The notes under the pieces are model-generated. The model did not search any database. It was not told the DNA's origin and was given only the letters and a program-made list of their open reading frames with translations. Below, piece by piece: positions 1 through 22,484 of a stretch of DNA of 25,657 bases. A program made the position numbers and the translations under genes. Source of the stretch: a virus; IMG/VR virus record IMGVR_UViG_3300005843_000036, positions 1 to 25,657 of that record; one strand, given 5' to 3'. Every line of letters starts with the position of its first letter. The first letter of the stretch is position 1.

Positions 1-666
1 GGTGATGTTCGAGCCGTTGAGCCCGGCGTCGGCCTTCGGGTTATTCAGAGAGTCGAACTCCGAATCGATGACCTGAATGCCGGTCGCCCCGACGTCGTTG
101 AGCAGGAGCCAGTAGCAGCCGTCGGACTTGAACAGGACGTTGCGGAAAACGACGTTGGAGACGCCGGAGCCGAAGGTCACGCAACCGTCGATCTCCAGGT
201 TCTGGTAGGTCGAGTTGGATGCGGTGACCTTGAGCGAGCCCCGCTTCGTGAGCACCGTGCCCGCCGGCACACCGGTGGTACTCGCGTTCGGGAAACCAGC
301 CGGCACGACGGTAGGAGTCGGGGTGGGCGTCGGGGTGACGCTCAAGGTCGGCGCGGTACTGGTGGGAGTCGGGGTCGGCGTGACGGTCGTGACCACGGTG
401 CTCGGTGCCGGAGTCGGCGGGGCCGGCACGACGCAATGGGTACCAGCGACGTCGAACCCGTAGGAGCTGCCGTCCGCGCTCATGCTTGGGGTCGAGACGG
501 CTAGCGGGGCGCAAGACGGTGCGACCTGCGGGATGTCGGCCAAGGTGACAGCGTTGCCCGATGGGCCTGCGGCGACACCGAAGCCGACCAGGCCCACGAT
601 GGCCAGAGCCGCAGCGGAAGCGACCAGGGCTCGCTTCGTAATGAAGGTGCGGACGTTGCTGGTCAT
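1..666 (-). CDS. Partial secreted protein: signal peptide, Thr/Pro linker, probable beta-helix domain
   Basis: The reading frame runs from ATG at 666 to the window edge with no stop (222 codons), so the C-terminus is missing. The start has an ideal ribosome site, AAAGGAG, 7 nt upstream. Residues 1-30 have a basic start and a hydrophobic Ala/Val/Leu/Gly core, like a Sec signal peptide or signal anchor. A short region with two cysteines follows (about residues 47 and 72), then a linker rich in TPTPTP, then from about residue 115 short alternating segments (YQNLEIDGCVTF, VVFRNVLFKSDG, IQVIDSEFDSL) that look like coils of a right-handed parallel beta-helix, as in pectate-lyase-like and tailspike folds. 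The gene lies just past the terminator that closes the lysis module. A signal peptide is unusual for a virion spike, so I infer an exported, possibly lysogenic-conversion protein. A tail spike or depolymerase is the alternative. Enzymatic activity cannot be judged. Confidence 0.8.
   Translation of the reverse strand, partial: MTSNVRTFITKRALVASAAALAIVGLVGFGVAAGPSGNAVTLADIPQVAPSCAPLAVSTPSMSADGSSYGFDVAGTHCVVPAPPTPAPSTVVTTVTPTPTPTSTAPTLSVTPTPTPTPTVVPAGFPNASTTGVPAGTVLTKRGSLKVTASNSTYQNLEIDGCVTFGSGVSNVVFRNVLFKSDGCYWLLLNDVGATGIQVIDSEFDSLNNPKADAGLNGSNIT
311..385 (-). repeat. Imperfect tandem repeat coding for the Thr/Pro linker
   Basis: Two similar copies, at 311-340 and 362-385, share the plus-strand core GGAGTCGGGGT followed by GGCGT and GTGACG. 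On the minus strand they encode the VTPTPTPT stretches of the linker in the partial secreted protein. Such low-complexity repeats can change in copy number, so linker length may vary between strains. Confidence 0.6.
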
Positions 667-690
667 CAGGTTTCTCCTTTGGGGCGCATG

Positions 691-719
691 AAAAAACCCG
701 CCACGGTATTCCGGGCAGG
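691..719 (-). terminator. Intrinsic terminator closing the lysis module
   Basis: On minus-strand RNA the sequence forms CCUGCC-CGG-AAUA-CCG-(U)-GGCGGG and runs directly into six U residues (plus-strand A tract 691-696). One stem pair is G-U on the minus strand but would be a C-A mismatch in plus-strand RNA, which fixes the orientation. It starts about 18 nt after the holin stop and sits just before the ribosome site of the gene starting at 666. Confidence 0.9.
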
Positions 720-737
720 TAGGGAGGACGGAAGCGG

Positions 738-1169
738 CTAGACCGGTGGGTTCTGATTGCCCAACAGTTGGGCGGCTTCAGCGTCGAGGCTGGCCAAGTC
801 GACCGGGCTCGGTGGCGGTGCCGCCACGGCCGCGGCCGCCGCCTGGGTAGCGATCTGAGCGGCCGCGTCGACGCGGATCAGCGGCACTCCGTCGGAGTCC
901 TTCGGGTCCAGTGCGATGTCCGCCGGCGTCGCGCCTTTGTGAATCCAGAGGCCCGCGCCGATCATGGTCAGGGTCGCGAGGCCGATCTGAATGAGCCCGG
1001 TCACGTGCGATGACTCGTCCGGTGTGATCACGTCGAACAGGACACCCAGTTGCAGCAAGGCACCTACGACAGCGGTGATGCCGGCCCGCTTCAAGGCGAT
1101 CACCCGGGCGAACTTCGAGACGGTCTTCTCCGCATCCTCGATGACGTTATCGATGCTGTGTTCGGCCAT
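738..1169 (-). CDS. Holin, two transmembrane segments
   Basis: This 143-residue protein has a short charged N-terminus, two hydrophobic segments (about residues 30-50, AGITAVVGALLQLGVLFDVI, and 60-78, GLIQIGLATLTMIGAGLWI) and an Ala/Pro-rich soluble tail of about 60 residues. The size, topology and place directly after the endolysin fit an actinophage holin, which opens the cytoplasmic membrane at lysis. Its ATG overlaps the TAA of the endolysin gene by one base (TAATG), so the two are translationally coupled. An intrinsic terminator follows. Other membrane proteins lie upstream, so which one sets lysis timing is not proven. Confidence 0.75.
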   Translation of the reverse strand: MAEHSIDNVIEDAEKTVSKFARVIALKRAGITAVVGALLQLGVLFDVITPDESSHVTGLIQIGLATLTMIGAGLWIHKGATPADIALDPKDSDGVPLIRVDAAAQIATQAAAAAVAAPPPSPVDLASLDAEAAQLLGNQNPPV

Positions 1170-1909
1170 TACTTGCCCGCTTTCATTGCGTCCTGGACCG
1201 CGGCGATTTGCGCCTGGGTCACCTTGATCTGGTTGAAATTGCTCTGCGCGGTGCCCAGGGACGCCTTCACCGTCGAGGCGAAGTCGCGTTGTCCGACGGC
1301 GACCGCGCTGCGGATCTCGTTGTAGACGTAGGCGAGCATCTGGGCCTGTGCTGGGGTCATGTCGTCCTCCTCGGACGTGATGGGGGTACCGCTACCGGAC
1401 GTGGTCTCGATCGGGGTCGTGATGACTGCGGCGATCGGGGCGAGGGCGGCGGCGTTGGTGGCAGCGTCGCGGTACAGCGACAGGTGCACGTGGCTGAGGT
1501 GGGATGAGTCCCACGTGTTGACGCCTTCCGAGGAGTTCGTCGGCAGGTCCCACGGGTAGGTGTTGCGTCCATCGAGGGTGCCGCAGAACTCTCGCAGCGC
1601 ACTCAGCCGCGGGTCCTTCGCTTTCGCTGCGTGCAACAGCCGGTTGGTGACCGCTTTCATCAGGTCCGGACTGAGCGAGATGTCCAGGGCGCTGCATGCG
1701 TCCCCGTCGCCGCCGAGATCCCGGGACAACCGGATCGAGTAGTCGCTAAAACCTTGCGAGCTGTGTAGCCGGTTCCAGTTCCGGGACCGGTGATAGCCGT
1801 AGGTATGCGTGGCGGGGTCACCCATGATGCCGGCCAGTCCGGCGGATGGAATGCCCTTCTGGATCAGGGCGAACAAGCTGTAGACAGCTCCGGGTGCGTA
1901 TTCGGGCAT
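1169..1909 (-). CDS. Endolysin with M15-type peptidase domain
   Basis: This 246-residue protein cleaves peptidoglycan cross-links by inference. The first 150 residues resemble the VanY/M15-like peptidase domain of actinophage lysins: a DYS segment near residue 57, the zinc-ligand-type ACSALDISL near 72-80 and the SSHLSHVHLSLYRD motif near 136-148, whose HxH supplies a metal ligand and catalytic residue. The first M15 histidine is not obvious. The C-terminal 90 residues are an Ala/Thr-rich linker and a helical region with no recognised wall-binding domain. I prefer ATG at 1909, which overlaps the previous stop (TGATG). GTG at 1912 is possible. It is coupled to the holin downstream. Confidence 0.8.
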   Translation of the reverse strand: MPEYAPGAVYSLFALIQKGIPSAGLAGIMGDPATHTYGYHRSRNWNRLHSSQGFSDYSIRLSRDLGGDGDACSALDISLSPDLMKAVTNRLLHAAKAKDPRLSALREFCGTLDGRNTYPWDLPTNSSEGVNTWDSSHLSHVHLSLYRDAATNAAALAPIAAVITTPIETTSGSGTPITSEEDDMTPAQAQMLAYVYNEIRSAVAVGQRDFASTVKASLGTAQSNFNQIKVTQAQIAAVQDAMKAGK

Positions 1910-2256
1910 CACTTCACCCCGGCCGGGAGGAGCGGCTTTACCCGCGGATCGGGCTCCGGTAGTGCCCCGGTGGTCTTCTCGCAGCTCTGTTTGGCGTAGG
2001 CGATCCGGGTGTCGGCGATGATCGTGAACGCGAGTTTCGTCGAGGTAGCGGACAGCGGTAGTTGCGCGAGGTCACGCCAGAACGGGCACAGCGCAGCGAT
2101 CGACGCCGCAGTCTGGGAGGACCTACGTTCAGAGATGTACGCCTCGGCGAGGCTGCCGACCAGCATCAGGAGAACGATGCTCAGCACGAGCAGCCGCACA
2201 GTGAACCGATCGAGGGATCGGATAGAACCATGCTCGGGTCTCGGTCCGAATGGCAT
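1909..2256 (-). CDS. Small membrane protein of the lysis cassette, one TM segment
   Basis: This 115-residue protein has a basic N-terminus, one hydrophobic segment (RLLVLSIVLLMLVGSLAEA, about residues 20-40) and a probably extracytoplasmic domain with two cysteines (in LCPFW and SCEK) that could form a disulfide. An in-frame ATG exists at 2274 inside the previous gene, but the ATG at 2256 has GGGGAAGG about 8 nt upstream and begins just after the previous stop (TAA, 2262-2264), so I chose it. It overlaps the lysin start. The function is unknown. Its position suggests a role in lysis, as an accessory holin, antiholin or envelope-disrupting protein. Confidence 0.7.
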   Translation of the reverse strand: MPFGPRPEHGSIRSLDRFTVRLLVLSIVLLMLVGSLAEAYISERRSSQTAASIAALCPFWRDLAQLPLSATSTKLAFTIIADTRIAYAKQSCEKTTGALPEPDPRVKPLLPAGVK

Positions 2257-2261
2257 CAGAA

Positions 2262-2579
2262 TTACCTTCCCCATAGTTGCCGCTGAAGGTCCGCGATCTG
2301 CTGGCGGTATTCACGGCCGGCCTCATTGGCTTGGGCTCTGGCTTCGGCAGCGTCAGCGCGGGCCTGCGCCAGGTCGTTCTGGGCCGCTATTTTCTGGTCG
2401 CGTTCATAGAGCATTTGCCGCTCCATCTCGCGTCTGCCTTCGGCTTTTGCGTCGGCGAGTTCTCTGGCCCGATGGGCTGCCTGTTCACGACCTGCGGTGC
2501 GGGCCTGGAGCCACAACCCGATGACGCCGAAGATCACCGCCGCTAGCACTCCAAGAGCGGTCCAGTGTTCGCTGCTCAT
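2262..2579 (-). CDS. Membrane-anchored coiled-coil protein of the lysis cassette
   Basis: This 105-residue protein has an N-terminal hydrophobic segment (LGVLAAVIFGVIGLWL, residues 9-24), then about 75 residues of highly charged Ala/Glu/Arg/Gln helix with heptad character, predicted as a coiled coil, ending in LQRQLWGR. The layout resembles an inner-membrane spanin or a stalk protein, but no o-spanin partner with a lipobox is seen, and classical spanins are a Gram-negative device. It overlaps the upstream gene by ATGA (2576-2579). I do not assign a function beyond a membrane protein next to the lysin. Confidence 0.7.
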   Translation of the reverse strand: MSSEHWTALGVLAAVIFGVIGLWLQARTAGREQAAHRARELADAKAEGRREMERQMLYERDQKIAAQNDLAQARADAAEARAQANEAGREYRQQIADLQRQLWGR

Positions 2580-2950
2580 CTCAGATACCGGTCGAGCGCG
2601 CTGAACCTGATCGCCAAGGCGTGGTACATGGTGGCGATCACGGCCGCTTCGACCGCGAAGATGTTCTTAGGTCCCGGTCCGCCTAAGGTGATGATCAGCG
2701 ATATGGACACGGTGGCGTACAGGACGGTGCCGAGGGCATAGCCGGCGGTGCGGGTGCGGTCGGCGAGAAGGAAGCAGCCGTAGACCACGGCCAGCACACC
2801 CCAGCAGTCGATCGGGATCGGGCTTTGGTTCAGCAGTTGCAGGGACGGTGTTCGTTGCCACTTGGAAGGATCACCGAGGACGAATACCAGACCGGAGACG
2901 ATGGCCGTGGCCGCCAGCAGATATCGCATAACAGGGAAGCGAGACGGCAT
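2576..2950 (-). CDS. Polytopic membrane protein, about four TM segments
   Basis: This 124-residue protein has hydrophobic segments near residues 10-26 (LLAATAIVSGLVFVLG), 49-65 (CWGVLAVVYGCFLLA), 71-92 (YALGTVLYATVSISLIITL) and 98-115 (IFAVEAAVIATMYHALAI). A longer open frame extends upstream to 3373 but is antiparallel filler over the fibre gene with Arg/Pro/Ser-rich translation. ATG at 2950 lies 25 nt after the fibre stop and has GGAG 9 nt upstream. The family is not recognised. Position between the fibre and lysin genes suggests a holin-like or superinfection-exclusion protein. Confidence 0.7.
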   Translation of the reverse strand: MPSRFPVMRYLLAATAIVSGLVFVLGDPSKWQRTPSLQLLNQSPIPIDCWGVLAVVYGCFLLADRTRTAGYALGTVLYATVSISLIITLGGPGPKNIFAVEAAVIATMYHALAIRFSALDRYLR

Positions 2951-2975
2951 CGAACATGGCTCCAATCTCCCTTGA

Positions 2976-3752
2976 TTAGGCGCAGAGTCCGTGCGCTTGC
3001 AGAATGGCGATGACGTCGGCCAGCGTGGTCGGCGTGGCTGACTGGGCGACCGGGGTGGCGCCGTGGACAGCGAACAGGCCGGGCACGCTGACTTTGTGCT
3101 GGTCGGTGCCGAGCACGAAGTCGTTTTCGCCAGTCGCAGTTGCGCCGTCCCCGTCAGCATTCGTGCCGATCGCAACCGATCCGTTGGCCTTGGCCGTCGT
3201 GTACGCGCCGAGCGTGGAGGCGTAGTTGACTGGATCGCCGCCCGAGGTCTGGATCTGCGAGCCTTGCCCGACAGCGGTCGAGTCATCACCCTCAACGCGA
3301 CCATTGCCGTACATATTCGAACGGGCGCCGAACACGCCCGCCTGGTAGCCGACGCCGGTTGACCATTCGCCATGGACTGTCACGCCCGAACCGACAGCAG
3401 TGATGCCGGTGCTGTCATCGCCGGATGATCCGCTGCCGACGATGGTGACCTTGTCGCCTGGGGAGTACGCGCCGTAGCCGAGGGCCACCGATTCGACCCC
3501 GTCCGCTTCGGTGCTGTTGTCGACACCGGACGAGAAAGCCAGGGCCAAACTGTGCGCGCCATCCGTGGTGATCCCAACGGTTATCCCTGAAGGCTGTGGA
3601 GCCGCCACCGCCCGCGCTTGAGGCCCTGCCCACGGTGCGACAGGTCGAGCGAACCGGGTAGCGCCAAGGTCCGACCCCGGCGACATCCGATCCAGAGTCA
3701 CGTTGAGGCGCTCTTCAGGTGTGCTCGGGAGGCGCCGGGGAACGTCAGCCAT
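2976..3752 (-). CDS. Minor tail protein / fibre with YadA-like beta-roll repeats
   Basis: This 258-residue protein has an N-terminal 55-residue Pro/Ala-rich anchor. Residues about 65-210 then carry repeated SxAxGxxxx units (SVALGYGAYS, STGVGYQAGV, STAVGQGSQI, STLGAYTTAK, SVAIGTNADG). This is the signature of trimeric autotransporter head domains, which form left-handed beta-rolls. A short FVLGTDQHKVSVPG segment and a C-terminal TLADVIAILQ helix follow, as seen at the ends of actinophage fibres. It probably forms a trimeric host-contacting fibre. The start at 3752 uses AAGGA, which overlaps the TAA stop of the hub gene 9 nt upstream, so the two are coupled. Confidence 0.8.
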   Translation of the reverse strand: MADVPRRLPSTPEERLNVTLDRMSPGSDLGATRFARPVAPWAGPQARAVAAPQPSGITVGITTDGAHSLALAFSSGVDNSTEADGVESVALGYGAYSPGDKVTIVGSGSSGDDSTGITAVGSGVTVHGEWSTGVGYQAGVFGARSNMYGNGRVEGDDSTAVGQGSQIQTSGGDPVNYASTLGAYTTAKANGSVAIGTNADGDGATATGENDFVLGTDQHKVSVPGLFAVHGATPVAQSATPTTLADVIAILQAHGLCA

Positions 3753-3761
3753 CAGCCGTCC

Positions 3762-5381
3762 TTAGGAGTTGTCGATAACGAACTCGGGCCACGCCTGAAC
3801 TGTGTCGCCCGACCCGTCGACCGTGATTGACAGGACCCGGGCACGCATGGTGCCGTCGTTGCGGTGAGCGGGGACGGTGATCGAGTCGCCCAAGCTGTAA
3901 TCCACATACGGCAGGGCGCCTACGAGGACTGACGGTTTCGCGGTCGAAGAGACAAGGATCGCGGCGGATTCGGCGAGTTGTGCTCGCGCGACATTCGCCG
4001 CAGTGACCAGGGATGAGGTCGACCCGATATTCAGGCCGACCTCGATCAGCCCGGTCGCCGAGACCCCGGCGGTGTCCAGCGTGTCGATCCACGTCCCGTC
4101 GGCGAGTTGCGTCAGAACGGAAGTGAACCGGGCCGTGGTCCGCGTGGTGTCGTAGGACATCAGGGTGCCGTCATCGTCGCCCAGCTTTAGCTCTACTGTC
4201 GCGGACAGGTCCGAGCCGCGCCGGTTCCAGGCCTGCAGCGTCATGGTGTCGGCGGCGACGTCGAAGTCCACTAGAGACTCGGCCAGTTGGGTCGCTATAT
4301 CTGAAAGGTTCACAGTGCCGACGTCGAACGTGAACTCGCCCCGGTCGGACCAAGCAACGCTGTCGGAGTCCTGTGTGACGTCGAAGTCCATCGTCAAGAG
4401 CGACGGCCCTAGAACCCCGCGGTCCTGCGCCTCCGTGACCAGGGTGTGCAGCACCCAAGCCCGGCCCCACCCCGGCTCGGGGACACCTGAGGAAACTTCC
4501 CACGTGTCGTCAGTGTGGATGACGAATGAGTCGCGGATCGGCTGCCCGTTGCCGTCCACAAACATCAGGGTGGCCATGAAAGCCATCGGGTTCAGAGCAC
4601 CCGGAGGAGTCCACGTGTAGGAGGTGTTTTGGCATTTCGCGGCGATCAGGTGATCACCGGCATCGAGTCGCAGCGGAATGAATTGGGCGTTGAACCAACT
4701 CGTCGCACCGGTCCGGTCCGCAGTGACCACTTGCTCGTTGTCGATATAGACATCACCGAAGTTGTCAGCCGATGTGATCAACACAAGGTCGGCCGCGTCG
4801 GTCAGGGTGAAGGTCTTGCGGAAGAAGTTCACGGTATCGACCGGCTGCGAAGTGTCAGGGTCGGTGTAGCCGATCCAGAACCAATTCCGGTCGTACGGAA
4901 GAAGCGCTTTAGGGTTGGGGCCGTGGGTACCACCGCCGAAAGCGGCAGTCTGTGGCGTCACCCATTCAGTCGGGTCACGCCAATCTCCATCCTTGGACAT
5001 GTATCCGAACGAGCGGCTTTGAGCGGACCGCCGGTTCAGACCATTCTCGGGATACACCACAGCGTCGTTGAGTAGCGACAGCAATCCCGGCTGATTGTCG
5101 AACTTGACCCACCGTGTCCCGTCGACCGCGAGCGAACACTGCTCCGACGTGATCCGCACACCGAACCGGATCGCGCCTTTCCATGAGAACTTGACGATGC
5201 AGCGGTCGGCGATATCCCCAGCATCAGCAAGGGGAACCTCGAACGATGCTGTGCCCGGCTTCGATAATTCGTGAAGCCACTGGATATTGCGGGCCGTGGT
5301 CAGATCGGAGATAAAGGTCGTGCCATCCGAGGCGTACAAATGGACCGCCGGCCGTTCAGTTCCGAGCACCGGGTCGGTCAT
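3762..5381 (-). CDS. Tail hub-like minor tail protein with inserted beta-sandwich
   Basis: This 539-residue protein resembles the Gp37-like minor tail proteins that close the distal tail (the siphovirus equivalent of the gp27 hub). The first ~120 residues (LHELSKPGTASFEVPLADA, then CIVKFSWKGAIRFGVRITS) and the C-terminal ~230 residues (GTVNLSDIATQLAESLVDFD, DSITVPAH near the end) are beta-rich hub-type sequence. Between about 125 and 300 lies an insertion with WIGY, FFRKTFTL and a GDVYIDNEQV stretch, like the sugar-binding jelly roll at the N-terminus of GH2 enzymes. I infer a carbohydrate-binding insertion. It overlaps the upstream gene by ATGA (5378-5381). Confidence 0.78.
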   Translation of the reverse strand: MTDPVLGTERPAVHLYASDGTTFISDLTTARNIQWLHELSKPGTASFEVPLADAGDIADRCIVKFSWKGAIRFGVRITSEQCSLAVDGTRWVKFDNQPGLLSLLNDAVVYPENGLNRRSAQSRSFGYMSKDGDWRDPTEWVTPQTAAFGGGTHGPNPKALLPYDRNWFWIGYTDPDTSQPVDTVNFFRKTFTLTDAADLVLITSADNFGDVYIDNEQVVTADRTGATSWFNAQFIPLRLDAGDHLIAAKCQNTSYTWTPPGALNPMAFMATLMFVDGNGQPIRDSFVIHTDDTWEVSSGVPEPGWGRAWVLHTLVTEAQDRGVLGPSLLTMDFDVTQDSDSVAWSDRGEFTFDVGTVNLSDIATQLAESLVDFDVAADTMTLQAWNRRGSDLSATVELKLGDDDGTLMSYDTTRTTARFTSVLTQLADGTWIDTLDTAGVSATGLIEVGLNIGSTSSLVTAANVARAQLAESAAILVSSTAKPSVLVGALPYVDYSLGDSITVPAHRNDGTMRARVLSITVDGSGDTVQAWPEFVIDNS

Positions 5382-5845
5382 GGCACGATCGGCACTGTCG
5401 GGGCCGAGGCGTCGAACCAGCAGCCGTCGAGATTCACGAACTGAAGCTCAGTCTGACCCGTCTGCGGGTTGAGGAGGGAGATACCGAGACCCTGCACGAA
5501 CTGCCCAGCCGCTGTATGCGTGTCATAGCCACCGCCGGACTTCGACAGTCGCCGGGTCAGCGTCACCAGACCGTTCGTGCCGGCACACGCCGCAGCGACG
5601 GAGCGCAGATTAGCGATCATGTCGACGCGGCTTGGTCCCTCGATCGTAACCATGACCGAGAAGGCGTAAGCGTCATAGGCTAGTTCGGCGCCGAGCTGAC
5701 CCCTCCGACCAGGGATGACATCGTTCGAGCCTCTCCGCACACCGGGCGCGAACAGCTCCATCTCATTGACGATGACGCCGTCGATGGCTTGAATGTCTGT
5801 CCCGTCCACCAGCAACGTGTCCGGAAGCGGTCCGTAGTACGGCAT
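5378..5845 (-). CDS. Distal tail-like minor tail protein
   Basis: This 155-residue protein follows the tape measure gene, where siphoviruses encode the distal tail protein that forms the ring linking tube and baseplate. Sequence features fit: a beta-rich N-terminal half with FAPGVRRGSNDVIPGRRGQ (about residues 33-51), a central TIEGPSRVDMIANLRSV segment, and a final LQFVNLDGCWFDA strand. Its ATG overlaps the tape measure stop by one base (TAATG) and its stop overlaps the hub start, so all three are coupled. Assignment rests on position and general character rather than a decisive motif. Confidence 0.7.
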   Translation of the reverse strand: MPYYGPLPDTLLVDGTDIQAIDGVIVNEMELFAPGVRRGSNDVIPGRRGQLGAELAYDAYAFSVMVTIEGPSRVDMIANLRSVAAACAGTNGLVTLTRRLSKSGGGYDTHTAAGQFVQGLGISLLNPQTGQTELQFVNLDGCWFDASAPTVPIVP

Positions 5846-8800
5846 TACGAAGCCCCGAGGGCGTAGGCGGCCCGGCGGAGACCGGCAGGTCCGGACTGGG
5901 ATGCACGTTCAGGCAAGGGGTTATTGATCGTCTGCTGGACAGTCACATTAGGTGTTTGTGACTGAGATCCGAGCGCGGCGGACCAGGCTTGAGCTTTCCC
6001 TCGGTTGTCGGCCAGTCCGCCTCCCGCGAATGCGGGGACCGCGCGATTGATCTTCGACAACATGGGGAGAAACACCTTGGTCGCGTTGGCGTTGACGACG
6101 AACTCACCATTGGACAGCCGCGCATTGATCGAATCCGATGTGCCTGTCCCCGGGCCGCTGACGTAGCCGCCCATCGCTCGGTTGACCGACGCGGCGAAAC
6201 CGGCGGCCTTGTTGTCTCGTAGCGCTTTCTGTAGTCCGGCGGCGTCGTCGTCGAACTGGAGTAGCACCGGGACGGTCCACACTTGGCCGGTGAGATTAGC
6301 CAGCAGCTGACCGAGCTTATCCAGCACGGTGCTCAACTGGTCGGCTCCGGGCGATGAGATCTTGTTCTCGATGTCACCGACGTTCTTGATGCCTAGGTAT
6401 TCCTCGGCCACCCTGTGGGCGGCTGGTGCTGACAGCCCCAGTTTGGTCAACTGATCTTCGAGCTGTCGCTGCGTGTGAGACACATAGAAGTCGTAGGCGT
6501 CAGACAGCGCGGTCGTGTCATGACCGGTCGCCAGTTCGTGCTGATAGATGGCCGCAGCCGCCTTCACCGCGCCGTCCTGGATGCCTTGCAGTTGCTCGAT
6601 GAGCGGTGCCGCACCTTCCTTGCTCAGGTCGATCAGGCCGGTCTTGGCGTCGATCGCGGCGAGTTCGGAGGCCTTGAGGTCTTTGGCCTGCTTGTCCGCC
6701 GCGGCCGATACCGCTGCTTGTGCACTGGCCACGGCCTGCGCACCTTGCAGTTGGGCATCCACGACGCCCTGCTGGGACTTCGCGAGTGCGGTCTGCGCAT
6801 CGGTGACGGCCTGAATCGACTGGGCAATGTTCTGCTGCGCGGCGACGACTTGCGCTGAGCCCTCGATCCCATCCTTGTCGGATTGTTTCTTTTCGTCCGC
6901 GAGGCGCTGGTTCTGCAAGCGGATCTCGGCCAACTGCTGCACGGCCTGGTCGTAATCCAACTTGGCCTGCGGGTCGTTGGGGTTCGCGGCGAGGTTCTTC
7001 TTCGCCTGCGCAAGGCTCAGAACCGCCTGACGCTCCGACAACTGGCCGTCGATGATCTGGTTACGCAGATCCTCCAGCTGCTCCTTGGCGGCCTTACGGG
7101 CGGCGGTGAGCGCAAGCTGGGCGTTGCGGGCCGCGGCCTGCGCTTGAGTCAGGGACCGCTCCGAAGATGCGACCTGATCGATCGCGTTCGCAACACCAGC
7201 CGAAGCCTGCCGCTGCGCCTGCCCGAGAGCTGTCTCAGCGGCACGCAGACCGGTTGCGTCGGCAACGGCTTCTGCGGCCTGGTCGGAGATCGCGTTGGTC
7301 AACGCGAGGTTGGCCTGGACTGACCCGGAGATGGCGGCGCTGTAGGACAAGGCATCGCCGTTGGCCGCACGCAGAGTCTCGCCGACCAGGGTGGCGCGGT
7401 CGGCGGCCCCTTTGGCGGACTGGCTGAACGCGCTCAAGGCTTGCATGTAAGTCGTCACCGACGCGCTTCCTGTGGCGCTCGCGGCCGACACCTTGCTCAC
7501 CGCATCGGCGAGCCTGCCGGTGGAGAGTGCGCCGCTATCAATCTGATCCTTGGTTATGCCCAGGACGCCGGCGAACTTCACTACCTGATCTGAGCTGAGG
7601 CCGAGCTTGTCGGCGACAACCTGCACACTGGCTGACGTCGTATTCAGGCCGCGCCACACGTCCGGCTGGGTATCAGCGAGTTCGCGTTGGGCCGCCACGG
7701 CCTTCTGCACCGCCGCCTGCTGGGACAGAAACGCGGCCCTCTGCAGATCCAACGCGAAAATGGTGGACTTCGACGGAGCACCCGAAGCCTGCCAAGTCTC
7801 GATCAGGTTCTGGTACTGCTGGTCGGTTCCGGTGATCGCTTGGGTCAGCTGATCGGACGTGATCGACGCCTTCAGCGCCCGTTCCGGCAATTTCGCCTGT
7901 TCCAGCGCATACTCCGCCGCGCTACGCGTCGCCTTATCGACCACCCCGTTACTCGCCTCGAGCGCCGTCCGGAAGCTCTTCTGCGTTTCACTGAAATGGT
8001 CCAGGGCCTGAATGCCCGCATTGTTTCGTTCGATGTAGTCACTGATCGCTTTGCCGGCCGTGTAGACGGCGATACCAATACCAGCGAAGACGCCAACTTT
8101 CGACGCGACCCCTCCCAGCGAGCCAGACAACTGGCCCACTCGGGTGTTGGCCAACACGCTGTTCTCCGACAGACCCAAGAGCTTCACGCTGATGCCATCG
8201 AAGACCCCCGACAACCGGTTCGCCGCATATAGCGAGGTGAAAGTGACGGCAAGGGCCTGTAGCACGGGCAACGGAATCGCGTTGATGACGTCAGCGAGCG
8301 CACCTAGTCCACCGACGACCTCCGACCCCACGGGAGCGAACGCAGCGACGACCCGGCCGGCGGCCTCCACGAGGTGCTCCAGGACAGGAATCACCTGGTC
8401 GAAATCCTGGCCGAGGGTCTGCGCGAAGTGTGCGCCGCCAGCGCCGGACGCGAACTTGTCGAACCGGGCCGACAGCGAATCGAGATACAGAGCGGTGTGT
8501 TGAATCAACGGGTTGAACGTGTCGAATCCTGCGATAATGCCGTGCAGGGTGTGGGCCGTCAGATCGCCGAGTGTCGTAGACAGCCCACTGACCGAATCGC
8601 GTAGATGCGGCATCTCGGCCGAGGCGTCGGCGATCGACCGGTTGAATCCGGCGAGCACACCGCGAGCAGCGATCTGCTCCAGACCAGCCAGGTCGGTTTT
8701 GATCAGGGCCAAGCCCTGGGCGTACTGCCGGCCCTCGGCGCTGCCCGACTTCATCTCGTTCGAGATGCCCTTAACTGCGAGGACAGCGGTGCCGCCGAGC

Positions 8801-9456
8801 CCAACGAATCCCGCGCCGAAGCCGACCACCGCACCGCTCAGCGGGATCAGCGCCGGACCGAGCAGGAGGATGGCGTCGCGAAGAGGCTTGATACCGAGAT
8901 CGGTAGCCTTTTTCGACTCCGTCTCGACGAGCCCCAGTTGCGCCTGCAGAGCAGCTAGCTCGGCCGAGGCTGCCGCTGCGTCCACTCGTACCCGGATGTC
9001 ATGCCCCGGGCCGGTAAGTTCGTCCAGTCGCGTCTTGAGGTGATTGATCACCGCAACGGCGGCGTCATCGGTGATGTGAACACCGACCGTCTTTCCGAGC
9101 GTGCCGAGCTGGGTTCGGAGCTTGGCCAACTGCTGCTCCGCTGGCTTCAGGTCAGCATCGATTTTCGCGGTCGGCAGCTTCGCCAAGGCGCGACGGATCT
9201 TCTCGGTGACCGCATCGCCGAACGCGCCGCCGTACAGGTCGCCTTGCTTGCCGCCCTGGGCCACAGGGTTGCCGGAGCGGATGCCCTTATCGATCGCGGT
9301 CCCGACCTTGGACGCGATCCGCGCGCCCATCAGCTCACCTATCTGGTCGCCGAGTCGTGACGCGTCGGGCAGGATCGATCCGCGGAGCTTTTCGACGAAG
9401 GCGCGGGAGGACGGAACAACATCTACGGCTACCGATCCGATGATGGGTTCGGTCAC
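5845..9456 (-). CDS. Tape measure protein
   Basis: At 1203 residues this is the largest protein in the window. It sets tail length (roughly 180 nm at about 1.5 angstrom per residue) and probably helps DNA entry. Residues 100-190 and about 770-970 are Ala/Gln/Lys-rich helices with coiled-coil character. A hydrophobic stretch spans about 196-230 (AILLLGPALIPLSGAVVGFG onward), and another occurs near 455-475. The C-terminus has the GGYVSGPGTGTSDSI and LSNGEFVVNA motifs common to many siphovirus tape measures. The start is GTG, overlapping the frameshifted chaperone stop (GTGA at 9453-9456). It lies between the chaperones and the distal tail gene, as in most siphoviruses. Confidence 0.95.
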   Translation of the reverse strand: MTEPIIGSVAVDVVPSSRAFVEKLRGSILPDASRLGDQIGELMGARIASKVGTAIDKGIRSGNPVAQGGKQGDLYGGAFGDAVTEKIRRALAKLPTAKIDADLKPAEQQLAKLRTQLGTLGKTVGVHITDDAAVAVINHLKTRLDELTGPGHDIRVRVDAAAASAELAALQAQLGLVETESKKATDLGIKPLRDAILLLGPALIPLSGAVVGFGAGFVGLGGTAVLAVKGISNEMKSGSAEGRQYAQGLALIKTDLAGLEQIAARGVLAGFNRSIADASAEMPHLRDSVSGLSTTLGDLTAHTLHGIIAGFDTFNPLIQHTALYLDSLSARFDKFASGAGGAHFAQTLGQDFDQVIPVLEHLVEAAGRVVAAFAPVGSEVVGGLGALADVINAIPLPVLQALAVTFTSLYAANRLSGVFDGISVKLLGLSENSVLANTRVGQLSGSLGGVASKVGVFAGIGIAVYTAGKAISDYIERNNAGIQALDHFSETQKSFRTALEASNGVVDKATRSAAEYALEQAKLPERALKASITSDQLTQAITGTDQQYQNLIETWQASGAPSKSTIFALDLQRAAFLSQQAAVQKAVAAQRELADTQPDVWRGLNTTSASVQVVADKLGLSSDQVVKFAGVLGITKDQIDSGALSTGRLADAVSKVSAASATGSASVTTYMQALSAFSQSAKGAADRATLVGETLRAANGDALSYSAAISGSVQANLALTNAISDQAAEAVADATGLRAAETALGQAQRQASAGVANAIDQVASSERSLTQAQAAARNAQLALTAARKAAKEQLEDLRNQIIDGQLSERQAVLSLAQAKKNLAANPNDPQAKLDYDQAVQQLAEIRLQNQRLADEKKQSDKDGIEGSAQVVAAQQNIAQSIQAVTDAQTALAKSQQGVVDAQLQGAQAVASAQAAVSAAADKQAKDLKASELAAIDAKTGLIDLSKEGAAPLIEQLQGIQDGAVKAAAAIYQHELATGHDTTALSDAYDFYVSHTQRQLEDQLTKLGLSAPAAHRVAEEYLGIKNVGDIENKISSPGADQLSTVLDKLGQLLANLTGQVWTVPVLLQFDDDAAGLQKALRDNKAAGFAASVNRAMGGYVSGPGTGTSDSINARLSNGEFVVNANATKVFLPMLSKINRAVPAFAGGGLADNRGKAQAWSAALGSQSQTPNVTVQQTINNPLPERASQSGPAGLRRAAYALGAS

Positions 9457-10129
9457 GACTGCCCCCCTTCTCGTTTCTTCTCGCGTTCAAGCCAGCGCGC
9501 TGTCCGGACGGCGAGCGCCTGCTGGGCGCGTTCGGTTTCGCCGGGTCGCGGGTAGGGTTTCGGGTCTTTGAAGATCGCCCGCATTTGAATGTCGATCAGG
9601 TCGGCGATCATGTACTGCCAGTCCGGCCACGTCGGGTGCCCGGCAAGGGCTGACTTCGTCGACGAGGTGATGGGCAGGCCGTTGATCAGAATGTGCAGCC
9701 GGCGCAGAGTGATCCGTCCCCGCCAGAAGTCCTGCAGATCAATCCCGAGACCGGCTAGGTCGTATTCGAGTTGGGCGTGGAAGCTGTTCACCAGGGCGAA
9801 CAGCGTCAGGAGTTTCCCGCTCCCACCGCCGCACCGATCGCGGCAACGAAATCGAGGTACGTGTCCTCGGGGGTGCAGCCGTCTTCGTCCTCGGTGGCTG
9901 CTAAGAACCGTGCGAACTGCGACGCACCGAGCAGCCACTCGATCGCTGCCGCGTCACGGTACTTCTGCATCTGTACCCGGAACTGAACCGAGTTGATTCG
10001 CTTCCGTTTGAACGTGAACACCGCTCCCGCGAATTCGACGGACACGGATTCCTTGCTGTCGATGATTTCGGCGACCGCAGTGTCAGCGGTGGCCGTGTCG
10101 CTCACATCAGTCTTAGCCTTTGAGGGCAT
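9453..10129 (-). CDS. Tail assembly chaperone, frameshifted long form (G-T type)
   Basis: The long product begins at ATG 10129, reads 106 codons in frame, then slips back one base on GGGAAAC (9818 to 9812) and continues 119 codons to TGA at 9453-9455, giving about 225 residues. The second frame (LLTLFALVNSFHAQL onward) is open across the slip, has no convincing own start, and its N-terminal extension upstream of the site is Arg-rich shadow translation. It ends in a charged helix (WLEREKKREGGQS). By analogy with lambda gpG/gpGT, the short and long forms are made in a fixed ratio and bind the tape measure during tail assembly. Confidence 0.9.
9806..10129 (-). CDS. Tail assembly chaperone, short form (G type)
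   Basis: This 107-residue protein starts at ATG 10129 with AAGGGAG about 9 nt upstream and ends at TGA two codons after the slippery heptamer. It has an acidic Ala/Thr/Asp-rich N-terminus, a central beta stretch (SVSVEFAGAVFTFKRKRI) and a helical C-terminal half (FARFLAATEDEDGCTPEDTY). It lies between the major tail protein and tape measure genes, the standard place for the gpG equivalent. A strong hairpin separates it from the major tail gene, so chaperone output is probably lower than that of the tail tube protein. Confidence 0.92.
   Translation of the reverse strand: MPSKAKTDVSDTATADTAVAEIIDSKESVSVEFAGAVFTFKRKRINSVQFRVQMQKYRDAAAIEWLLGASQFARFLAATEDEDGCTPEDTYLDFVAAIGAAVGAGNS
9812..9818 (-). 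promoter_or_regulatory. -1 programmed frameshift slippery site GGGAAAC
   Basis: On the minus strand the zero-frame codons are GCG GGA AAC TCC TGA, so the heptamer is placed exactly as X XXY YYZ. After a -1 slip the reading is GGG AAA CTC CTG ACG, which matches the open downstream frame. The zero-frame stop lies one codon after the heptamer. Confidence 0.93.
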
Positions 10130-10155
10130 GGCGCAGACTCCCTTATTTCAGCGCA

Positions 10156-10205
10156 GGAAAGTGAAGGCGGGACGGTCGGGCCTGCGCGTCCCGGACCGCC
10201 CCGCC
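10156..10205 (-). terminator. Strong hairpin between major tail protein and chaperone genes
   Basis: Minus-strand RNA folds GGCGGGGCGGUC (10205-10194) against GACCGUCCCGCC (10177-10166), 12 pairs with one G-U, closed by an inner GGG/CCC stem. It is followed by UUCACUUUCC, a weak U-rich run. The G-U pair would be an A-C mismatch in plus-strand RNA, so it works leftward. It begins 9 nt after the major tail stop. It probably gives partial termination, or protects the upstream message from 3' decay. Confidence 0.75.
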
Positions 10206-10214
10206 GATCAGGGG

Positions 10215-10790
10215 TTACGAGACCGACTCGGCCGCGTTGTCGGTGATGTCGGTGTAGAGGACACCGTCCGCCGACGGGAAGCAGGTCACTTCGAATTGCA
10301 CGACGGACAGGCCGGAGTGGTTGTCGGTGATGGTGCCGGTGACGGCGGCCTCACCCAGTGCGATGGATACGCGGCGGATGACGACGGTGCCGTCACCTGC
10401 GGTGAAGTGCTCCTCGAGCACCCACGCCCGCCCGTCGGTGCCGGTGAAGGCCTTGACGGGCGTCGTGGTGATGCCGGTCGCCGTTGCCGGCGTCGACCCG
10501 GGCCGGGTCAGGCCGTTGACGATCGCGTTGCGCTCGAGCGCTTCGAACGTGAACTTCCTGGTGTCGTTGGTCCGGACGTTGCGGATCAGGGATCCGTTGA
10601 CGCCGTAGACCTCGGTGGCGTTGTTGGACCGGGTCTCTCCGAACCCCGACTCCCCGAGCCACCCGACCTCATCGAAGGCAGCGTTCAGGGCCGTGGTCGT
10701 ATTGGTGGGTGCGGTGGTGCCGACGGGGCCGACGTAGACGAACCCGTCGAGGAGGACGAGGGCGTTGTCGGAGCTGCGAGTGCTGGTCAT
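10215..10790 (-). CDS. Major tail protein
   Basis: This 191-residue tail tube subunit is beta-rich and begins with NALVLLDGFVYVGPVGTTAP, typical of actinophage tail tube proteins. Further segments include FDEVGWLGESGFGETRS (about 40-56), KFTFEALERN and the late SGLSVVQFEVTCFPSADG strand. Length and position before the chaperones fit. Its ATG overlaps the stop of the upstream small gene (ATGA). A strong hairpin follows the stop, consistent with a need for far more of this subunit than of the downstream tail proteins. Confidence 0.88.
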   Translation of the reverse strand: MTSTRSSDNALVLLDGFVYVGPVGTTAPTNTTTALNAAFDEVGWLGESGFGETRSNNATEVYGVNGSLIRNVRTNDTRKFTFEALERNAIVNGLTRPGSTPATATGITTTPVKAFTGTDGRAWVLEEHFTAGDGTVVIRRVSIALGEAAVTGTITDNHSGLSVVQFEVTCFPSADGVLYTDITDNAAESVS

Positions 10791-21847: not shown

Positions 21848-21889
21848 AGTGTTTAGCGACTTGACACTTGCGATGTTTAGCCACTAAAC
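21848..21889. promoter_or_regulatory. Dyad operators in the hicA promoter
   Basis: GTTTAG-CCA-CTAAAC (21875-21889) is a perfect 6-bp inverted repeat over the -10 box. The related GTTTAG-CGA-CTTGAC (21851-21865) lies over the -35 box with centres 24 bp apart, and TGTTTAGC recurs as a direct repeat (21850, 21874). AGTGT/ACACT (21848-21852, 21864-21868) adds an outer dyad. By family analogy these are binding sites for the HicB helix-turn-helix domain. Confidence 0.6.
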
Positions 21890-21890
21890 T
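21861..21890 (+). promoter_or_regulatory. Promoter of hicAB
   Basis: TTGACA (21861-21866), an 18-nt spacer and TAAACT (21885-21890) match the consensus well. The expected transcript start is near 21897, one base before the hicA ATG at 21898, so the mRNA may be leaderless. This suits the absence of a ribosome site and is common in actinobacteria. Confidence 0.72.
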
Positions 21891-21897
21891 TACACTC

Positions 21898-22107
21898 ATG
21901 AGAGCAAGGGAAATCGAGCGGAAGATCGTACGACTCGGCGGTGTGCACACGCGCACGGTTGGGTCGCACAAGCGCTACCAGGTGACTGGCAACGGCGTCA
22001 CGGCCAGCACTGCGGTACCGCAGCATCCGGGCGATATCCCAAACGGGACGCTGCACAAGATCCAGAAGGACCTTGAACCGGCTTTAGGGAAGAAGTGGTT
22101 GATATGA
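21898..22107 (+). CDS. hicA: HicA toxin, mRNA interferase
   Basis: This 69-residue protein has the small dsRBD-like HicA fold. REIERKIVRLGGVHTRTVGS leads into HKRYQV, with the catalytic-type His24, and HPGDIPNGTLHKIQKDL matches the family C-terminal signature. HicA cleaves mRNA in a translation-independent manner and is neutralised by HicB. I chose ATG 21898 because it follows the promoter directly. The frame upstream to 21868 lies inside the promoter. The stop overlaps the hicB start (ATGA). It is one of only three plus-strand genes here. Confidence 0.92.
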   Translation: MRAREIERKIVRLGGVHTRTVGSHKRYQVTGNGVTASTAVPQHPGDIPNGTLHKIQKDLEPALGKKWLI

Positions 22108-22484
22108 CGTACCGAGTGGTTGTGACCCGGGAGGGCGACGACTGGCTGGCTGACGTGCCCGAGGTCGAAGGGGCGCACACGTGGGCTCGGTCGTTGGAAG
22201 GGTTGATGAAGTCGGTTCGGGAAGTGATCGTTCTTATGTCCGATCTACCCGATGACGCGGAGCCGGCGATAAGCCTGGATTTCCAGTTGGATGCAGAGGT
22301 CTTGCGGAACGCGGCGCGGGTTGGTGCTGAACGGCGGGAGTTGTCGGCGCAGAAACGCGAGCTTCAGCGGAAGGCCGCGCAGGCGTTGCAGGAGTTGTTA
22401 GCGGCTCACGTTTCCGGGCGGGACGCGGCCGTGCTGCTCGACATGACGCCCGGTCGGGTGTCCCAGCTCGCGAACAGTAAGTAG
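22104..22484 (+). CDS. hicB: HicB antitoxin with C-terminal DNA-binding domain
   Basis: This 126-residue protein has the HicB fold at the N-terminus (TYRVVVTREGDDWLADVPEV, then EGLMKSVREVIVLM), a charged helical linker (RRELSAQKRELQRKAAQA) and a C-terminal helix-turn-helix (HVSGRDAAVLLDMTPGRVSQ). It binds HicA and probably represses the promoter by way of the dyads at 21848-21889. The ATG at 22104 overlaps the hicA stop (ATGA) and is preferred to an upstream GTG at 22095. Confidence 0.9.
   Translation: MTYRVVVTREGDDWLADVPEVEGAHTWARSLEGLMKSVREVIVLMSDLPDDAEPAISLDFQLDAEVLRNAARVGAERRELSAQKRELQRKAAQALQELLAAHVSGRDAAVLLDMTPGRVSQLANSK

Follow-up and report, generated by a model that had tools for sequence, protein, structure and literature searches.

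The gene cut by the edge of the analyzed DNA stretch (the window, a viral record of 25,657 bases) encodes a predicted exported protein with a Thr/Pro-rich linker followed by the beginning of a right-handed beta-helix. Its likeliest reading, from sequence comparison, is a secreted protein that acts on exopolysaccharide (EPS), was borrowed from host EPS loci and belongs to the late lysis operon; in our assessment the balance tips slightly towards a beta-helix protein exported through Sec late in infection, with host exopolysaccharide as its target and, most likely, easier release and spread as its effect.

The window and its edge gene

The window comes from a soil virus, by its sequence a siphovirus-like actinophage; its genes lie nearly all on the minus strand, the large terminase is ~54% identical to that of Mycobacterium phage Cornie, and a tape-measure protein is also present. 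Two other regions of the window were recorded. At 21868-22484, on the plus strand among minus-strand genes, a HicA toxin gene (PF07927, E 6e-8) overlaps a second gene, with no Pfam match, which would be a putative HicB-type partner. At 2976-3752 (minus strand) a minor tail-region protein carries YadA_head repeats (PF05658, E 6e-8), an adhesin-type motif in an actinophage. The features of the edge gene and of the lysis region beside it, all on the minus strand, are as follows.

1..666, minus: gene of the exported-type beta-helix protein, 3' end missing at the window edge (ORF, relatives, synonymous excess)
565..666, minus: predicted Sec-type signal sequence, residues 1 to ~34 (rule-based prediction)
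304..564, minus: extracytoplasmic spacer with two cysteines and a Thr/Pro-rich linker (sequence, comparison with L003 and L004)
1..303, minus: right-handed beta-helix domain, first part, GFPNASTTGVPAGT... (profile, alignment, L004 model)
675..681, minus: ribosome binding site AAAGGAG (sequence)
690..720, minus: intrinsic terminator that separates the beta-helix gene from the lysis genes (-16.4 kcal/mol, z -2.66)
738..1169, minus: holin-like protein with two transmembrane stretches (hydropathy; no Pfam or PHROG family match)
1169..1912, minus: probable endolysin (SSHLSHVHLS motif and place; no Pfam or PHROG match)
1909..2579, minus: lysis-cassette genes for two small membrane proteins, one of which, the second, is weakly Rz-spanin-like (phrog_1403, E=4e-4)

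The ORF running from 666 to 1 comprises 222 codons, is open at the window edge and runs off the contig. An edge-cut gene with an export-type N-terminus, a Thr/Pro linker and the start of a beta-helix had been predicted here, and this ORF contains all three: the linker holds TPTPTP twice and is followed by GFPNASTTGVPAGTVLT, the beginning of the helix domain. Searches of Pfam, PHROGs and NCBIfam with the window fragment gave nothing useful, and the G+C content of the gene (66.5%, against 63.2% +/- 1.9%) does not tell whether it is of foreign origin.

Lysis region and expression

The original prediction placed the gene just beyond a lysis terminator and gave it a ribosome site of its own, and both are found: the hairpin at 690..720, CCUGCCCGG-AAUA-CCG(U)GGCGGG-UUUUUU, separates the lysis genes from the edge gene, and AAAGGAG lies ahead of the latter at 675..681. 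A simple terminator scan missed this hairpin, probably owing to its bulge. The further suggestion, that the gene is a moron expressed apart from the lysis genes, found no support. AAAGGAG begins 10 nt past the U tract and the ATG follows 24 nt past it, a distance that leaves no room for a promoter; moreover, a scan of positions 1-6000 for the sigma-70 consensus, the only promoter type covered, revealed no promoter-like site.

The same hairpin structure is present in the related contig L002. In L004 a different hairpin occupies a similar place, before the preceding gene, and a gene start follows after a similarly short gap; the operon of this contig takes in the beta-helix gene and ends in a strong terminator at ~10950. 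In L021 the beta-helix gene starts at the end of an r1t-type holin gene. A terminator ahead of the gene was considered as a general trait of these loci and discarded: apart from the window group only L004 has one, and there it stands ahead of the preceding gene. The short gap, the L004 operon, the abutment on the L021 holin gene and the proximity to lysins described below favor read-through of the late lysis operon over an independent moron, and expression of the edge gene by such read-through fits the arrangement observed.

Complete relatives and exchange at the linker

Close relatives of the edge gene were found on three viral contigs, L002, L003 and L004. L002 is the same kind of phage as the window (97.9% DNA identity over 8.5 kb) and also ends inside the beta-helix gene, while L003 and L004 carry the whole gene, encoding 363 aa. 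Only the first 99 residues of the helix are covered by the window protein, the remainder being taken from L004; over this stretch it is 97% identical to L004 (residues 109-207), and the 99 codons differ by 16 synonymous and 3 nonsynonymous changes, an excess that argues for selection on the helix protein.

Identity with L003 and L004 at the DNA level (91%) begins inside the spacer and linker, at about position 333. Similarity between the window and L004 is limited to window positions 1-333 (91%) and 55 bp in the inter-domain linker of the lysin (window 1343-1397, L004:6493-6547), likewise 91% identical between otherwise dissimilar phages; the two lysin-like proteins are 37% identical over 112 aa. 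A nearly identical helix behind different export-type N-termini, in phages that otherwise differ, points to domain exchange at the linker, and on the same comparison we read the 55-bp lysin stretch as a second exchange point at a linker. The stretch common to the window and L004 may be the reason why two contigs end there.

Export-type N-termini in the viral family

A search with the family profile led to 41 viral loci, their viral status resting on IMG/VR and on the neighboring genes, with hallmark genes checked in part. To score export-type starts we used a home-made rule requiring a basic n-region and an uncharged hydrophobic 10-mer followed by small-X-Ala; relatives' start codons were picked by rule, gene calls on the contigs were our own, and other genes were counted if they had at least 150 aa. 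The N-terminus of the window protein, MTSNVRTFITKRALVASAAALAIVGLVGFGVAAG, with its basic n-region and hydrophobic core, is signal-like by this rule, which bears out the exported-type start predicted for it. At least 29 of 37 sampled viral members share such a start, compared with 31 of 346 other genes on the same contigs (Fisher p 7e-20); a laxer version of the rule gave 31/37 and 28/356, respectively. The basic-hydrophobic-small-residue pattern recurs although the N-terminal sequences of the members are otherwise unrelated, and two or more cysteines precede the helix in most members having an export-type start. By its predicted start, the window protein belongs to the exported-type majority of the viral family.

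Clear Ala-X-Ala sites for signal peptidase I are seen in L004 (TANA-DT) and in many relatives, while the window's own site is weak. This weak site and the long hydrophobic stretch preceding it would suit a protein anchored to the membrane or wall of infected cells or lysogens, which would bind or mask the polysaccharide receptor of competing phages and thereby exclude superinfecting phages or convert the cell surface; with such an anchor the helix would stand off the membrane on its spacer and linker, and read-through expression could be low and steady. We nevertheless hold anchoring to be unlikely, given the clear cleavage sites of relatives such as L004, a position in the late lysis operon that suits lysis time better than lysogeny, and a fragment in which no integrase or repressor was recognized.

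Beta-helix fold and candidate active site

AlphaFold2 modeled the L004 domain, with 60 relatives aligned, as a right-handed beta-helix (mean pLDDT 93, pTM 0.92), and the 99 helix residues of the window match part of this model, in agreement with the fold originally proposed. The best VIA-align matches to the domain lie close together at Z 18-21 and include alginate lyase 6kfn, an alginate epimerase/lyase, AlgE6/AlgE4, AlgG epimerases and the RbmB lyase, together with several glycoside hydrolases and several tailspikes. With enzymes and binders all at similar Z, the fold points to polysaccharide and not to a reaction. Sequence searches were less informative: L004 scored 21.5 bits (E 2e-4) against PF13229 Beta_helix, below the gathering cut-off of 25.9 bits, and the window fragment gave no match to this family; a PDB sequence search returned nothing with L004 and marginal matches only with the family profile, and Foldseek against the PDB yielded nothing below E 1e-3.

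Residue H137 is shared by 97% of the viral sequences and by all (100%) of the cellular ones; D139, H127, H153 and N154 are frequent alongside it, a pattern that would fit an active site, though it is not proof of one. The DPHNDG motif of L004 was considered as the counterpart of the catalytic DPH of AlgE and dropped, because the aligned residue ranges (ranges only) put it elsewhere.

Genomic setting of the viral members

In 8 of the 11 contigs with a recognized lysin, this gene and the beta-helix gene are no more than 3.2 kb apart, where 1.3 would be expected (P 3e-6), the radius having been picked after viewing the loci and the chance figures assuming uniform placement; the window and L004 add to these eight. 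The lysins were recognized by three families: GH25, Amidase_2 and Rv2525c-like. Several signal-bearing members, however, sit among other, uncharacterized late genes without an adjoining lysin, which counts against the favored reading.

Three further loci are of note. A PIG-L type deacetylase gene (L037:4396-5136) immediately precedes the lysin gene, and two signal-bearing family members stand in tandem on a single viral contig at L022:7371-9685. In L096 the lysin is 61% identical to its L004 counterpart, and the post-lysis slot is occupied by a GH16 protein and a protein with a GDPD domain (6726-7694 and 8563-10494). This was the one informative slot obtained by searching lysin relatives, and it suggests that the slot is variable and holds envelope-active proteins.

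At L048:6243-8780 the beta-helix domain of the family is fused to a Mu gp48-like baseplate protein; by its domain composition this is a virion-borne version of the family, and the helix can be virion-borne elsewhere. The window protein could accordingly be a tailspike or accessory fibre, mounted on the particle to recognize or digest host polysaccharide at entry, with a hydrophobic N-terminus that serves for attachment and is no signal. Tailspikes classically have a beta-helix fold and stand high among the structural matches, and at some loci the gene lies among other late genes. Yet signal-like N-termini recur across unrelated N-terminal sequences, whereas the baseplate-fused L048 has no such start and neither do L030, L032, L035, L038 and L041; paired cysteines stand ahead of the helix, and no virion-anchoring domain was recognized, the N-terminus having no Pfam or PHROG match. 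On this evidence a virion spike seems an improbable identity for the window protein, and the members lacking an export-type start, L048 included, point to two uses of the beta-helix family in phages.

A tblastn search of cultured-phage records with four family queries gave no match, nor did a PHROG search with 60 family members at E 0.01; a literature search, partial in coverage, returned no description of a phage-secreted beta-helix.

Cellular relatives in exopolysaccharide loci

The homology of L004 to an actinomycete EPS-locus family spans the whole helix domain (A1/A2 profiles). A family member is present in 58 of 297 genomes of one actinomycete class, and in 47 of these 58 a Wzy_C gene lies within 12 kb of it, compared with 0.7 expected by chance, which ties the family to exopolysaccharide synthesis. 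Most of nine clusters read in detail encode Wzz-like and Wzy proteins and a WecG-type glycosyltransferase beside the beta-helix genes, and also a UDP-GlcNAc 2-epimerase, a UDP-sugar dehydrogenase and RmlC. Tandem pairs or triplets of beta-helix genes within Wzy-type polysaccharide clusters were often seen in the actinomycete genomes (L113-L121). These relatives strengthen the earlier guess of a polysaccharide-binding or -degrading protein. In the phylogenetic tree viral and cellular copies are interleaved, the window and L004 grouping with Frankineae and Nonomuraea sequences, a topology consistent with repeated gene exchange between phages and hosts.

CAZyme genes, those for pectate lyases among them, are reported from soil viruses (PMC6460857; PMC12713726), and the related rhizobial proteins are of extracellular type; the edge gene might then be an auxiliary metabolic gene whose product is an enzyme secreted to make soil or plant polysaccharide available to the infected host as food. 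We regard this as very improbable: the actinomycete relatives reside in EPS biosynthesis clusters and not in catabolic loci, and a gene in the late lysis operon would leave little time for feeding.

Proposed role

The fold, the export-type start, the conservation, the position in the lysis region and the relatives in EPS loci come from the computations themselves. In the mechanism that we favor, transcription of the late lysis operon would continue past a leaky terminator into the beta-helix gene, the last operon gene known from the fragment, and the infected actinobacterial cell would export the product through Sec. Outside the cell, a disulfide-capable spacer and the Thr/Pro linker would carry the right-handed beta-helix, which would bind, and probably cleave or epimerise, host exopolysaccharide. 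The protein would accumulate there shortly before and during lysis, and the thinning of the polysaccharide could help progeny leave and spread. We infer this exit-side role from gene position, with precedents in Lys44 (PMC6116005) and in Actinoplanes hydrolases (PMC12691653).

A broader and more tentative proposal, which we consider possible but rather doubtful, is that uncultivated actinophages repeatedly took secreted EPS-locus beta-helix proteins into the late lysis region as an outside-acting release factor, clearing exopolysaccharide as holin and endolysin breach the wall from inside the cell. Polysaccharide-acting beta-helices of phages are familiar as virion spikes working at entry; a family that infected cells export and that is encoded with the lysis genes would put this fold to a second use, on the exit side. 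The findings also suggest a function for a beta-helix family that is common in actinomycete EPS clusters, and they supply a concrete candidate among proteins that could act on the EPS or biofilms of soil actinobacteria. Caution is advisable in annotation, as the fold alone is insufficient to name such soil-virus genes tailspikes or carbon-cycling auxiliary genes.

Comparison with known systems

The beta-helix proteins of actinomycete Wzy-dependent EPS loci and their rhizobial relatives belong by profile to the same family (~30-37% identity), and, like the phage copies, often have a signal or anchor and a linker. They are cellular and encoded in EPS clusters, often in tandem, whereas the phage copies are found in late lysis regions; the rhizobial relatives differ further in their RTX-type C-terminal extensions. 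The tailspikes of P22, Sf6, Det7 and CBA120 (TSP2) have the fold and a likely polysaccharide ligand in common with the window protein; they are virion trimers with head- or tail-binding N-termini, in contrast to its export-type start and Thr/Pro linker.

The mannuronan C5-epimerases AlgE4, AlgE6 and AlgG, alginate lyases and the polysaccharide lyase RbmB have the same fold (Z 18-21), and several of them act on EPS outside the cytoplasm; at ~13-19% identity in the structural alignments, their likeness to L004 is one of fold.

Lys44 of phage fOg44 is an exported endolysin, a lysis-region protein with a true Sec signal (PMC6116005), and so a precedent for such a signal on a phage protein of this region; it acts on peptidoglycan, whereas the window protein lacks any peptidoglycan-lytic domain, the lysin being a separate protein encoded beside it. 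In Actinoplanes missouriensis, GimA and GimB are Sec-secreted polysaccharide hydrolases that free spores from their matrix, one of them encoded beside a Wzx/Wzy-type cluster (PMC12691653); these are bacterial GH5 enzymes, whereas the window protein is a phage beta-helix.
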